From positions 186,001-250,000 of the forward strand of contig NZ_CANMJB010000003.1 of the NCBI RefSeq assembly GCF_947498175.1: 64,000 nt of DNA, in the 5' to 3' direction. Source of the stretch: an uncultured Algimonas sp. GTDB lineage: Bacteria > Pseudomonadota > Alphaproteobacteria > Caulobacterales > Maricaulaceae. Positions 45,134 through 49,245 of this stretch are shown here, one piece after another (within the stretch, counting starts at the first letter, position 1; each line of letters starts with the position of its first letter). The notes under the pieces are model-generated. The model saw only the letters and a list, made by a program, of their open reading frames with translations. It did no database searches and had not been told where the DNA came from. Both the position numbers and the translations under genes were made by a program.

Positions 45134-45219
45134 TGTCTTCCTTCTCCCGTGCCTTCGCGGCACAGCAAGTCGCTGAGCCCGACCAACAGGGCCGTGCAAT
45201 GAGACGGGGGAGAACGGCC

Positions 45220-45501
45220 ATGGCCGAAATCGATGTGACACACGAACCGGGCGAGGCGGCGAAAGCTGCCTATTGGCGCTCGGCCAAGCGGCTGACCTTG
45301 GGGCTTCTATGCGTCTGGTTCGCCGCTTCCTATGGTGCGGGCATATTGTTCCGAGAGGCGTTGGACAGTTTCTCGATCGGCGGCGCCCCGCTCGGCTTCT
45401 GGTTCGCCCAGAACGGAGCCATCTACATCTTCCTGCTGCTGATCGTGATCTACTGCATTCAGATGACCCGGCTGGAGCGCCGCTACGGGCTGGGAGGCTA
45501 G
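45220..45501 (+). CDS. DUF4212 small symporter subunit
   Basis: The 93-residue product has two membrane helices (LTLGLLCVWFAASYGAGILF and GFWFAQNGAIYIFLLLIVIYCIQM) and a conserved Y-W-R-S-A-K-R motif near the start, the DUF4212 pattern. DUF4212 proteins are encoded directly before SLC5 symporters of the VC_2705 type and are presumed accessory subunits. GGGAG precedes the ATG by 8 bases. The symporter gene starts 4 bases after its stop. Confidence 0.9.
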   Translation: MAEIDVTHEPGEAAKAAYWRSAKRLTLGLLCVWFAASYGAGILFREALDSFSIGGAPLGFWFAQNGAIYIFLLLIVIYCIQMTRLERRYGLGG

Positions 45502-45505
45502 AGCG

Positions 45506-47314
45506 ATGGATCAGACCTTCTGGACCTACTTCTTCGTCATCCTGACCTTCGGGCTCTATATCGGCATCGCCATCTGGGCGAAGGCCGGGTCGACCGAAGA
45601 CTTCTACGTGGCGGGCCACGACATCCATCCGGCGCTCAACGGCATGGCCACGGGCGCGGACTGGATGAGTGCGGCGTCCTTCCTCTCCATGGCGGGGCTC
45701 ATCGCCTTTCTCGGCTATGGCGGCTCGGTCTATCTGATGGGCTGGACGGGCGGCTACGTTCTGCTGGCGCTGCTGCTCGCGCCCTTCATGCGCGAATTCG
45801 GCAAGTTCACCGTGCCGGATTTCGTCGGCGACCGGTACTATTCCAAGGTCGCGCGGGTCATCGCCGTGATCTGCGCATTGATGGTGTCGTTCACCTATAT
45901 CGCCGGACAGATGAAGGGCGTCGGCGTGGCGTTCTCAAGCTTCCTCGGCGTGAACTTCAATGTCGGCATCTTCATCGGCTCGGCCATCGTGTTCTTCTAC
46001 GCGGTGCTGGGTGGCATGAAAGGCATCACCTATACGCAAGTGGCGCAATATGTCGTTCTGATCTTCGCTTATACGGTCCCGGCCATCTTCATCAGCCTGG
46101 CCATCACGGGCAATTTCATCCCGCAGCTCGGTTTCATCGGCAATGCGGCGGGGACGGACACGCCGATGCTGGAGAAGCTGAACACGCTCGTCACGGATCT
46201 CGGCTTCACCGAATATACCGGAACGACCAAGGCCAAGATCGACGTGTTCTGCATCACGGCGGCGCTGATGTTCGGCACGGCCGGACTGCCGCATGTCATC
46301 ATCCGCTTCTTTACCGTCAGTTCAGCCCGGGCCGCGAGGAAATCCGCCGGATGGGCGCTGATGTTTATCGCATTGCTCTACACGGTCGCGCCGGCGGTCG
46401 GGGCGTTTGCGCGGATCAATTTCATCGAGACGGTCAACGAGGCGACCTACATTTCTGACGACGAGAACTACGACGCCCGTTCCGCCGAAATCCTCGCAGA
46501 GGGCGGCAAGCCGGTGCCGGAATGGTACAAAACGTGGGAAACCACGGGCCTGCTCGCCTATGACGATCTGAACGGTGACGGCGTCATGCAATATCGCGGT
46601 CCCGCAGCCCCCGACGGCGTCGCCAACGAGGTCGTGCCGAACAACGACATCTTCGTGCTGGCCAATCCGCAGATCGCCAACCTGCCCGGCTGGGTGATCG
46701 GTCTGGTCGTGGCGGGCGGTCTCGCCGCCGCGCTCTCGACGGCGGCGGGCTTGCTGATGGTGATCAGTTCAGCGGTCTCGCATGATCTCATGAAGCGGAC
46801 TTTCACGCCGAACATGTCGGAGAAGCAGGAGATGTTCGCCGCCCGGACGGCTGCCGCCGTGGCAGTGGTCGCCTCGGCCACGCTGGGAGCCTTCGCGTCC
46901 AGCCTGCCCTTCGTCGCGCAGGTCGTGGCGTTCGCCTTCGGGCTGGCGGCCGCGTCGCTGTTCCCCGTGATCTTCCTGGGCATCTTCTGGAAGCGCATGA
47001 ACAAGGAAGGCGCGATCTCTGCCATGCTGGTAGGTCTGATCACGACCTTCAGCTACATCTACTACTTCAAGTTCGTGAATGAGGATCCGTCGCTCTGGCT
47101 CTTTGGGGTCTCGCCGGAAGGTATAGGCTTCGTGTTCATGTGGCTGTCGCTGGTGGTCGGAATCGGTGTGTCCCTCGTCACCGCGCCGCCGCCGCAGGAC
47201 ATCCAGGATCTGGTTGCGGATATCCGCATCCCCGGAACGCGACGTCCGCACGGCATCGCGGACGTAGGCATGACCCCCGACATGCCGGGTCTGGTGCCGG
47301 ACTCAGCGGAGTAG
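45506..47314 (+). CDS. Sodium:solute symporter, SLC5 family (acetate/short carboxylate type)
   Basis: This 602-residue SLC5 protein starts with FWTYFFVILTFGLYIGIAIW and has AKAGSTEDFYVAGHDIHPALNGMATGADWMSAASFLSMAGLI, the family entry motif. GLPHVIIRFFTV (the R-F-F motif) and GGLAAALSTAAGLLMVISSAVSHDL follow. A long hydrophilic insertion (~300-380) is normal for the VC_2705 subfamily. Acetate, lactate or another monocarboxylate is the likely substrate given acs and the CrbSR pair nearby. A strong terminator follows. Confidence 0.9.
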   Translation: MDQTFWTYFFVILTFGLYIGIAIWAKAGSTEDFYVAGHDIHPALNGMATGADWMSAASFLSMAGLIAFLGYGGSVYLMGWTGGYVLLALLLAPFMREFGKFTVPDFVGDRYYSKVARVIAVICALMVSFTYIAGQMKGVGVAFSSFLGVNFNVGIFIGSAIVFFYAVLGGMKGITYTQVAQYVVLIFAYTVPAIFISLAITGNFIPQLGFIGNAAGTDTPMLEKLNTLVTDLGFTEYTGTTKAKIDVFCITAALMFGTAGLPHVIIRFFTVSSARAARKSAGWALMFIALLYTVAPAVGAFARINFIETVNEATYISDDENYDARSAEILAEGGKPVPEWYKTWETTGLLAYDDLNGDGVMQYRGPAAPDGVANEVVPNNDIFVLANPQIANLPGWVIGLVVAGGLAAALSTAAGLLMVISSAVSHDLMKRTFTPNMSEKQEMFAARTAAAVAVVASATLGAFASSLPFVAQVVAFAFGLAAASLFPVIFLGIFWKRMNKEGAISAMLVGLITTFSYIYYFKFVNEDPSLWLFGVSPEGIGFVFMWLSLVVGIGVSLVTAPPPQDIQDLVADIRIPGTRRPHGIADVGMTPDMPGLVPDSAE

Positions 47315-47336
47315 ATCTGAAATACGTCAAAACAGA

Positions 47337-47361
47337 AGCCGCCCGTCGAGGCGGCTTTTTT
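47337..47361 (+). terminator. Rho-independent terminator after the symporter
   Basis: AGCCGCC-CGTCGA-GGCGGCT followed by six T. It isolates the following small peptide gene from symporter transcription. Confidence 0.9.
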
Positions 47362-47407
47362 AGACCAATGTCTAAGAAAGCCCGCATTTATAGTTGTTGC
47401 TTCAAAC

Positions 47408-47430
47408 ACACCAAATGGTAGATTTGGTGT
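47408..47430. promoter_or_regulatory. Perfect 9-bp inverted repeat upstream of the double-glycine peptide gene
   Basis: ACACCAAAT-GGTAG-ATTTGGTGT lies 11 bases before the AGGAGG ribosome-binding site. It overlaps a plausible promoter (TTGCTT, 16 bases, TAGATT), so it could be an operator, or it could form an RNA hairpin in the leader. Confidence 0.6.
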
Positions 47431-47451
47431 ATCGCAAAATAGGAGGAAAAA

Positions 47452-47592
47452 ATGCGAGAACTCAAAACCGAAGAAATGAGAGACGTCTCAGGAGGTTTCC
47501 TAATCTTATTGGCGATTCTGATGCCGGGCGAGGTGACAGATGATGGAACAGGATATTACGACAATGAGCACAATGTGCCCTTCTGCGCCTAA
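47452..47592 (+). CDS. Double-glycine leader peptide, bacteriocin/microcin-like precursor (46 aa)
   Basis: A perfect AGGAGG five bases upstream and an ATG give MRELKTEEMRDVSGG, a leader closely resembling colicin V/class II bacteriocin leaders that C39-peptidase ABC exporters cut after Gly-Gly. The remaining 31 residues are FLILLAILMPGEVTDDGTGY then YDNEHNVPFCA: a hydrophobic start, an acidic/aromatic middle and one cysteine next to the end. The gene is AT-richer than its neighbours, has its own promoter-like sequence, and is flanked by two near-identical terminators. No immunity protein or exporter is visible in the window. It could be an antimicrobial, a signalling peptide or a RiPP precursor. 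Confidence 0.72.
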   Translation: MRELKTEEMRDVSGGFLILLAILMPGEVTDDGTGYYDNEHNVPFCA

Positions 47593-47625
47593 ACTGTATG
47601 AAAAAGTGAAAGTTCGCTTTGTCGA

Positions 47626-47651
47626 AGCCGCCCTTCTGGGCGGCTTTTTTT
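47626..47651 (+). terminator. Rho-independent terminator after the peptide gene
   Basis: AGCCGCCC-TTCT-GGGCGGCT followed by seven T, 34 bases after the peptide stop. The stem nearly repeats that of the terminator at 47337-47361. Confidence 0.92.
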
Positions 47652-47654
47652 GTT

Positions 47655-48293
47655 CTAGCGGAACAGGAAGCGTTTCGCGCCGTCCGCTTCTAAGGGCGAC
47701 CAGCTCTCGGGATGGACCGTCAAGGGTACCGGGGCGGCGTCGATCTGGATCGGCTGCTCCGGCAACATGGTCGCCACGATGGGCGCGCGAGGTCCGGCCT
47801 CGGCCGCCCGTGCAGCCTCGAAAGCGGCTTGCAGCATGTGGTCCTCGTTCATGACGCTGCCGCGCGCCTGGCTGATGCGCAGCATTTGGATCTCCAGCTT
47901 CAGGCGCTCGACCTCCAGATTGTACAGCTTGGTGCAGTCGATGCGCTTGGGCTTGCGGCCCAGCGGTATCGTGATGCGCCCGTATAAAGCCGCCGCATCG
48001 CGCGCATAGACGTCGTTGGTGCCGATCACCCCGGCGTCGAACACGGGACCGCTCGTGCTGACCGAGGATTGGCAGGAGATGCCGCCCGCGCCGCGCACGC
48101 TGTCCTGACCTGTGGCGCGCGGCACGGCGGGCAGGTTGAAACCCTGCTGATTATAGGCGCTGAGATTGGACGGGATCAGGATCGCGCGGGTGTCGGCTTC
48201 CGCCGGAACCTGACGGGCCAGAACCGGCGCGGCCGGTCCCGTCGCCGCGAGCGCTGCGATCAGCGCGACCGAAAGGCGGAGACCTTGCCGCAT
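47655..48293 (-). CDS. Exported hypothetical protein with C-terminal helix
   Basis: The product is 212 aa with a Sec signal (RLSVALIAALAATGPAAPVLARQ). The mature part has two segments. Residues ~60-115 contain SCQSSVSTSGPVFDAGVIGT and YGRITIPLGRKPKRIDCTKL, with paired cysteines. Residues ~120-165 form a charged helix (YNLEVERLKLEIQMLRISQ). No named family is recognised. It is the last gene of the leftward set with two other secreted proteins, overlapping its neighbour by 34 bases, so it is probably part of the same surface structure. Confidence 0.65.
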   Translation of the reverse strand: MRQGLRLSVALIAALAATGPAAPVLARQVPAEADTRAILIPSNLSAYNQQGFNLPAVPRATGQDSVRGAGGISCQSSVSTSGPVFDAGVIGTNDVYARDAAALYGRITIPLGRKPKRIDCTKLYNLEVERLKLEIQMLRISQARGSVMNEDHMLQAAFEAARAAEAGPRAPIVATMLPEQPIQIDAAPVPLTVHPESWSPLEADGAKRFLFR

Positions 48294-48667
48294 ACTTCCC
48301 CCTTATAGGATGCGCCGACCCCCGCGATACGGGGTTGCATGGCGTGACAGACATAGACGATCCGCGTGCGTTTGCCGGGTTCGAAATCGACCAGCACGCC
48401 GATGCGGCGTTTCTGGCCGGGCCCCAGAACGAAGTCGTCGGCCGTCAGGGCGACGCGCAATATAGGCAGCATCGCCGTATCGCGCACGATGATCCGGCTG
48501 CGCTGTGGTTGCGCGTAGGGATTGCTCACATCGACTCCGATCTTGAAGACGTCGGTGTCCGCCGGAACGACCTGCTTCATGGGTGTCAACGCTTGTGCCG
48601 AAGCCGTCATCGGAAAGGCCGCGAGCAGCGCGGCCGTGACGATCCAGAATGGAGAGCGATACGTCAT
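48260..48667 (-). CDS. Exported Ig-like/chaperone-like small protein
   Basis: The product is 135 aa with a signal peptide (FWIVTAALLAAFPMTASAQA). The mature ~105 residues read as beta strands (DTDVFKIGVDVSNPYAQPQRSRIIVRD, VLGPGQKRRIGVLVDFEPGKRTRIVYVCHAMQ), recalling the N-terminal Ig domain of fimbrial chaperones. It is too short for a full FGS/FGL chaperone. Two cysteines (VCHA, EVCGKV) could pair. It overlaps the fimbrial-like gene by 4 bases (ATGA). Confidence 0.6.
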   Translation of the reverse strand: MTYRSPFWIVTAALLAAFPMTASAQALTPMKQVVPADTDVFKIGVDVSNPYAQPQRSRIIVRDTAMLPILRVALTADDFVLGPGQKRRIGVLVDFEPGKRTRIVYVCHAMQPRIAGVGASYKGEVCGKVSAFRSR

Positions 48668-49161
48668 GGCGTGATGCAGCGAACCGTCGGGCTCAGCGTG
48701 TAATTGCCGACCGGATAGAGCGTATCGCTGCGCGCGGCCTCGACATTCAGCGTCATGGCCGTGACACCCGGAAGAAGCGTCGTGGCGACCGCGCCGTCGG
48801 CCATTGTTCCCATCGTCACACCGGTCAGTGTGTATTCTGTGGAGAAGAGGCTGCCCGTATCGGCCCCACTGGGGGCGACGGTGAAAGCGCTGGGATTGAC
48901 GATCTGGATCTGAGAACCGGTGATGTTGGTCGTGATCTCGGCCACGCCGCTGACGCCGCCGATTTCCTTGCTCGACATCTTCAGATGGTCGGCCGAAACA
49001 CCGAGCTGGCCGCTGGTCATGACGTTGATGACACAGCTGGCCGTGATCTCGCCCGTGAAACTCATGGCCTGGTCGATCGTGTCGGCCCGGCCGGTTCCGG
49101 GCCGAAGCAACATGACTCCAAGAATGGCGCCTACAATGACGGCTTTCGGCCCGTATGTCAT
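48664..49161 (-). CDS. Spore-coat-U/fimbrial-like secreted subunit
   Basis: The product is 165 aa from the ATG at 49161, with AGGGGG upstream and a signal peptide (AVIVGAILGVMLLRPGTGRA). The mature protein begins FTGEITASCVINVMTSGQLGVS and ends GNYTLSPTVRCITP. A conserved N-terminal Cys and a C-terminal Cys with a beta-rich body match SCPU/fimbrial-subunit-like proteins. It is the first gene of the three-gene secreted set. No usher gene is in the window. Confidence 0.65.
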   Translation of the reverse strand: MTYGPKAVIVGAILGVMLLRPGTGRADTIDQAMSFTGEITASCVINVMTSGQLGVSADHLKMSSKEIGGVSGVAEITTNITGSQIQIVNPSAFTVAPSGADTGSLFSTEYTLTGVTMGTMADGAVATTLLPGVTAMTLNVEAARSDTLYPVGNYTLSPTVRCITP

Positions 49162-49230
49162 CCTATCCCCCTTCAACCCCGACAAACATTCGAACCGAAT
49201 AAAAAGGCAGAAAATTGCAAATCGGTTAAT

Positions 49231-49245
49231 ATGGTTTAAAACCAT
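49231..49245. promoter_or_regulatory. Perfect palindrome between fimbrial-like operon and crbS
   Basis: ATGGTTT-A-AAACCAT, a 15-base perfect dyad in the divergent 170-base region, ~70 bases before the fimbrial-like start and ~86 before crbS. TTAA half-sites within it resemble a CtrA box but with spacing 6 instead of 7. Regulator unknown. Confidence 0.45.

Follow-up and report, generated by a model that had tools for sequence, protein, structure and literature searches.

In pneumococcus, leader positions -15, -12, -7 and -4 direct double-glycine peptides to the exporters ComAB and BlpAB, and PCATs are able to share substrates (PMC7018657, in its available part). For class II microcins, the available part of PMC9746304 puts verified precursors at 75-120 residues and describes an immunity protein. 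In the alphaproteobacterium Caulobacter, the Cdz glycine-zipper proteins are small peptides that depend on type I secretion (PMC5380434, likewise in part).

We analyzed a short gene at C3:233452-233592 of a 2.85-Mb genome of 26 contigs. It lies within the window, the whole 64,000-nucleotide stretch of DNA under study (C3:186001-250000). Like the ComAB, BlpAB and RtgAB substrates in the available part of PMC7018657, its product has a leader ending in GG with hydrophobic residues at -15, -12, -7 and -4, and its genome encodes C39 exporters. Unlike them, it is not encoded beside an exporter, its host is Gram-negative and its core is unrelated to any family that we found. The double-glycine leader, and the presence in the genome of a C39 exporter together with HlyD and TolC-type proteins, also recall class II microcins, the class that the initial annotation had invoked. 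However, set against the microcins in the available part of PMC9746304, the precursor has 46 residues rather than 75-120, no clear linked immunity gene and an acidic core; because the size feature failed, we do not file it as a class II microcin. The model for class IIb lactobin A/cerein 7B (TIGR03949) scored 13.5 bits, under its curated cut-off of 21.5, and only leader residues 3-17 aligned. With the Cdz proteins, as far as PMC5380434 was available, the peptide has in common its small size, type I secretion as the probable route and an alphaproteobacterial host, but its 31-residue core contains no GxxxG glycine zipper and it stands alone at its locus. A sister peptide elsewhere in the genome (C3:372725-372982) resembles Cdz, in the same part of that source, in being glycine-rich with a two-helix ORF adjoining.

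The precursor gene and its surroundings

The open reading frame, its perfect AGGAGG, the leader and the 31-residue core all read as the initial annotation had described them, and the two near-identical terminators that it had placed around the gene are present. Positions are those of the window.

47338..47361, + strand: intrinsic terminator closing the symporter gene and forming the upstream border of the unit; called by the terminator scan on the - strand only
47408..47430, no strand: perfect 9-bp inverted repeat with a 5-nt spacer, a possible operator or RNA hairpin
47441..47446, + strand: ribosome-binding site AGGAGG, 5 nt before the ATG, read directly
47452..47592, + strand: precursor gene, 46 codons, stop included; recovered at E 4.7e-4 by a leader profile that leaves it out
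47452..47496, + strand: double-glycine leader MRELKTEEMRDVSGG, 15 residues, with hydrophobic M, L, M and V at -15, -12, -7 and -4
47497..47589, + strand: core FLILLAILMPGEVTDDGTGYYDNEHNVPFCA, 31 residues, net charge -5, pI 4.05, ~3,429 Da unmodified, hydrophobic first third, one Cys
47625..47651, + strand: strong intrinsic terminator of the precursor gene, with a T run

Both terminators have GCCGCCC...GGCGGC and a T run in common. The DNA between and around them had been called AT-richer than its surroundings, and this is borne out: GC content is 44.5% in 47362-47660 and 63.8% for the window, whose lowest-GC 230-nt stretch (41.7%, sampled every 5 nt) starts at 47386. The claim that a perfect dyad overlaps a candidate promoter survives in its first half. 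The arms, ACACCAAAT-5-ATTTGGTGT, are a perfect 9-bp match, but a sigma-70 scan of 46900-48100 returned no promoter. The 64 kb hold eight separate sites at which perfect 9-bp arms enclose a 3-8-nt loop, the dyad being one and the second terminator another. By itself, then, the dyad is nothing extraordinary. It has no further copy in the window with up to three mismatches allowed. Tested as a shared regulator site across 22 stretches (8 from this genome, 14 from relatives), it gave only three weak matches with 4 arm mismatches, all in relatives; the stretches of this genome around the four other double-glycine genes had none.

The upstream neighbor is a symporter gene (Pfam SSF). No clear immunity-like gene was found among the three nearest genes on each side, and no receptor gene adjoins the target. 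Among these six neighbors, only one small protein has two hydrophobic segments: the 100-aa product of 45199-45501, whose gene immediately precedes that of the symporter. Of the three downstream neighbors, two have a single N-terminal hydrophobic segment. The earlier description of a neighborhood free of exporter and immunity genes is right about the exporter, as the window holds no C39 exporter; for immunity genes it is supported in part, over these six neighbors. On the - strand, 47655-49245 carries three consecutive small ORFs (212, 135 and 193 aa) with no Pfam match, and these are absent after the symporter in 9 genus relatives.

The class of the leader and the origin of the core

A profile built from 15 other leaders, with the target left out, recovered the target in its own genome at E 4.7e-4. 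Scanned with a 14-row leader matrix at the permissive setting of 12 bits, the window gave the target as its only match (27.7 bits). All four recognition positions are hydrophobic. Collectively, these data support the view that MRELKTEEMRDVSGG is a C39-type double-glycine leader, judged from its sequence, and uphold the bacteriocin-type reading that it had first been given; very probably the peptide is a substrate of a C39 exporter. The core gave no Pfam match, and neither did the rest of the target, up to E 10. The profile search of relatives that the initial annotation had proposed yielded related leaders in 65 of 137 family genomes at E ≤0.5. Two of the three observations that it had listed as speaking against itself were a leader not kept in relatives and a genome lacking a C39 exporter; since the leader is kept in relatives and C39 exporters are present (see below), both fall away.

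We set 36 distinct short-peptide leaders from the family against 23 from longer peptides, one short peptide of genome G050 being dropped. In leave-one-out trials 35 of the 36 short and 21 of the 23 longer leaders were correctly placed. The target scored 3.8 bits towards the longer-peptide class; an earlier comparison with 12 hand-picked longer leaders had put it 6.0 bits towards that class. The target has Met at -7, found in none of the 36 short and 13 of the 23 longer leaders, and Ser at -3 (1/36 and 15/23, respectively). Its leader thus leans weakly to the longer-peptide, or bacteriocin, type.

Some match to the target at E ≤10 occurred in 23 of 148 other relatives, but the 30 rows of that search from outside the own genome included no orthologue with both leader and core: the leaders of longer double-glycine proteins account for two (L013, L021), and RHS segments or unrelated frames for 28. 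No core orthologue was found in the 136 other family genomes, three of which have matches at E ≤0.05 (G003 and G005, both RHS, and G070, a 467-residue frame). The target was absent after the symporter in all nine genus genomes with a strong symporter match. As far as sampled, the core sequence appears private to its species.

The RHS matches raised a candidate origin for part of the core, which we rejected. Residues 21-40 (AILMPGEVTDDGTGYYDNEH, 47512-47571) resemble a conserved RHS segment, SLMFPGQYADEETGYYDNWH, present in genus relatives, in four copies in G003 (L003, L026, L031, L107) and in G005 (L004). The raw BLOSUM62 score of 67 was reached by none of 500 shuffles, whose maximum was 42. 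However, the match emerged from a search of 149 genomes (E 0.002 per genome), the DNA agrees at 34-37 of 60 positions and the same codon serves 3-7 of 10 shared residues; by eye, the own genome's RHS protein is less similar to the target than are those of the relatives. Because the match was picked from so many genomes, we take the likeness as probably due to chance.

Exporters, sister peptides and a kinase elsewhere in the genome

The search for a C39 exporter elsewhere in the genome, also suggested at the outset, was productive: PF03412 (C39 peptidase) has three matches, all outside the window, two of them in C39-ABC exporters. By eye, the C39 domains of both exporters keep Cys, His and Asp.

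C3:309220-311316, - strand: first C39-ABC exporter, ~76 kb from the target
C3:308948-309013, - strand: short sister peptide MRELTVEELDVVVGG-YPIIVDF, after the first exporter
C3:373458-375608, + strand: second C39-ABC exporter, with ABC domain, ~140 kb from the target
C3:375605-376840, + strand: HlyD protein, directly after the second exporter
C3:372725-372982, - strand: glycine-rich sister peptide, leader MRELTTDEMHKTGGA, adjoining the second exporter divergently
C3:372439-372633, - strand: 64-residue ORF with two hydrophobic segments, after the glycine-rich peptide
C4:364105-365526: OEP (TolC-type) protein
C4:365593: third PF03412 match, following the outer-membrane efflux protein gene
C4:27771 (L071:3718-3948): further double-glycine ORF, away from exporters
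C1:372944 (L072:3945-4187): further double-glycine ORF, away from exporters; the ORF after it has 175 residues and five hydrophobic segments

The target is therefore one of at least five double-glycine peptides in the genome, two of which adjoin exporters, so "orphan", its original label, fits the locus but is wrong for the genome. The two ORFs away from exporters, C4:27771 and C1:372944, were first found at E 0.035 and 0.11, respectively, with a profile of four leaders, theirs not among them; the other four genome matches of the 15-leader profile are partly by construction, because it contains the genome's own leaders. The sister peptides at both exporters have leaders of the MREL type, very similar to that of the target. 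The 64-residue ORF could be the immunity gene of the glycine-rich sister peptide, and the whole locus, C3:372439-376840 (L038:440-4841), with second exporter, HlyD protein and glycine-rich peptide, is reminiscent of Caulobacter Cdz.

EM..VSGG leaders predominate among the longer peptides encoded next to relatives of the HlyD-partnered exporter at 64-71% identity (L232, L234, L237, L249, L083); L232 also has one EL-leader peptide beside such an exporter. In L083 (G053:C6:1-14000), several double-glycine proteins lie between a C39 exporter and an HlyD protein; they include two pairs with near-identical N-termini, and an ORF that by eye is transposase-like sits at the edge. Since the target leader leans to the longer class, we assign the target to the HlyD-partnered exporter, a choice that we consider somewhat better than even over the other C39 exporter.

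The first exporter belongs to a different arrangement. At C3:306669-311316 (L035:8670-13317), outside the window, the C39-ABC exporter, the MRELTVEELDVVVGG-YPIIVDF peptide and a sensor histidine kinase follow one another in order, and relatives of this triad are found at L073-L086, L110-L130, L211-L230 and L236. The leader-profile matches include many very short open frames, mostly 20-24-residue precursors, with cores such as YPIIVDF, APIIVDF, NPIVIDF, MPIIIDF, SPIVIDF and KRLKIKV, and an ultrashort peptide was read in 12 of 18 genus genomes. We counted 44 such peptides in 42 genomes, hand-picked from the profile lists as short open frames carrying this leader. Left out were L111 and L215, short frames whose cores differ, L219, which a contig end truncates and which gave no hit, and other short-frame matches. 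Core length is 5-9 residues in 31 of the 44. Another nine hold between two and five tandem copies, such as five of RGVVL in L217 and four of IPVIDF in L222; the remaining four have other cores of 11-31 residues. The peptide of one relative, L213:3753 (- strand, G046), has a 31-residue core lacking repeats, with exporter and kinase still in place.

Enough flank on both sides was available at 38 of the 44 loci, the other six being too short. At 31 of these 38, the peptide gene is flanked immediately upstream by a relative of the first exporter and immediately downstream by one of the own kinase; two have the kinase only (L079, L217) and five have neither (L112, L126, L129, L216, L223). The short-peptide profile has matches at E ≤0.001 in 33 of 398 genomes of the order, 29 of them within the family. 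In the four outside it the matched frames have 88-236 residues and represent longer proteins with the leader, as in three of the 29. Among the best 80 of 573 C39 loci of named genomes, 32 have a leader-like ORF, and four of those 80 are of the ultrashort type (L131-L134, including Algimonas arctica and Litorimonas cladophorae).

The kinase has 721 aa with HisKA and HATPase domains. Its hydrophobic segments, at 1-19 and 411-429, predict a periplasmic portion of ~390 residues. A receiver domain is present in five of six relatives' kinases scanned and lacking in this one. An AlphaFold2 model built from 24 sensor sequences is nearly all-helical (mean pLDDT 86.6, pTM 0.78). Foldseek found no match to this model in the PDB below E 0.001. 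The best 50 matches begin at 1.4e-3; they are mostly TPR or other helical-repeat proteins and include the pheromone receptors RapH (3q15, E 0.010) and phage Phi3T Rap with pheromone (8rtc and 8rst, E 0.014-0.017). As far as the model goes, the likeness to Rap is generic to helical repeats. TPR sequence models gave scores under their cut-offs only, and in one of seven kinases scanned (L076).

Peptide-pheromone sensing has its models in ComAB-CSP-ComD and Rap-Phr. The triad is analogous to ComAB-CSP-ComD in its exporter, peptide and sensor, and differs by the Rap-like fold predicted for its sensor. By this analogy it looks like a candidate Gram-negative peptide-pheromone relay. The C39 exporter would release an ultrashort, lineage-variable peptide, usually of 5-9 residues and in some cases excised from a tandem array of two to five. 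The histidine kinase encoded by the next gene would sense it through its predicted TPR-like periplasmic domain. The known quorum signals of Proteobacteria are typically small, enzymatically produced molecules, as the available part of PMC10075063 has it. A literature search, which largely covered work other than subscription papers and bioRxiv, turned up no account of a module like this from these bacteria.

What the peptide may do

Our main reading, to which we give a probability of about 0.55 as a whole, is that the gene encodes an orphan secreted peptide that leaves the cell through the HlyD-partnered C39 exporter and serves in competition. A C39 ABC exporter whose gene lies at another place on this contig, most likely that at C3:373458-376840, ~140 kb away, would recognize the leader and work with a TolC-like channel. 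The precursor would be cut after Gly-Gly during transport, and an acidic 31-residue peptide with a hydrophobic first third would be released outside the cell. Its likeliest role is narrow-range competition in the manner of class II peptides, with no clear immunity gene linked to it. That longer double-glycine peptides lie beside exporters in the family suggests this role; because neither a core orthologue nor an adjacent immunity gene was found, antimicrobial action is something that we infer, and our preference for competition over a signal or a relic is a tentative one, a little short of an even call.

The lack of a clear immunity gene, the small size and the acidity are why these two other readings are kept. 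The peptide might be a secreted signal or modulator that uses the other C39 exporter (C3:309220-311316) within the pheromone-like module. Its MREL leader is common to it and the module's peptide, it has no clear immunity gene at its side and it occupies its own terminator-bounded unit with a dyad. However, the leader leans to the longer-peptide class, the core has 31 residues where 31 of the 44 module-type peptides have 5-9 (yet that of L213 also has 31), no receptor gene adjoins it and it is not conserved, and we regard a signaling role as unlikely. We judge it equally unlikely that the gene is the remnant of a bacteriocin locus that has lost its immunity partner and perhaps part of the core. 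Its place in a low-GC islet, the lack of an orthologue and of a clear immunity gene, and its absence after the symporter (0/9 genus genomes with a strong symporter match) would fit such a history, but start, ribosome-binding site, leader, stop and private terminator are all intact. Finally, a chance ORF or a regulatory leader peptide that is not secreted seems very improbable. The region has six Rfam matches, models of Phe and Leu leaders among them, and 46900-48100 yielded no sigma-70 promoter; yet all six score far under their gathering scores, the leader is matched by a profile lacking it, AGGAGG is perfect, all four recognition positions fit, and no same-strand gene lies downstream before the terminator to be regulated.

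Beyond the peptide itself, the genome may hold a double-glycine peptide economy around a Gram-negative peptide-pheromone relay, with the orphan as another C39-exported peptide, possibly an output of the relay. We hold this broader view with less than even confidence; the relay carries most of its probability, and the orphan would be tied to it only through the common leader. With a core that is short, acidic and private to the lineage, an export tag that is clear and candidate exporters in the genome, the target makes a directly testable secreted peptide from a little-studied marine group. If the conserved triad of exporter, ultrashort peptide and kinase is what it looks like, it would offer a case of Gram-negative peptide signaling that can be tested with short synthetic peptides.
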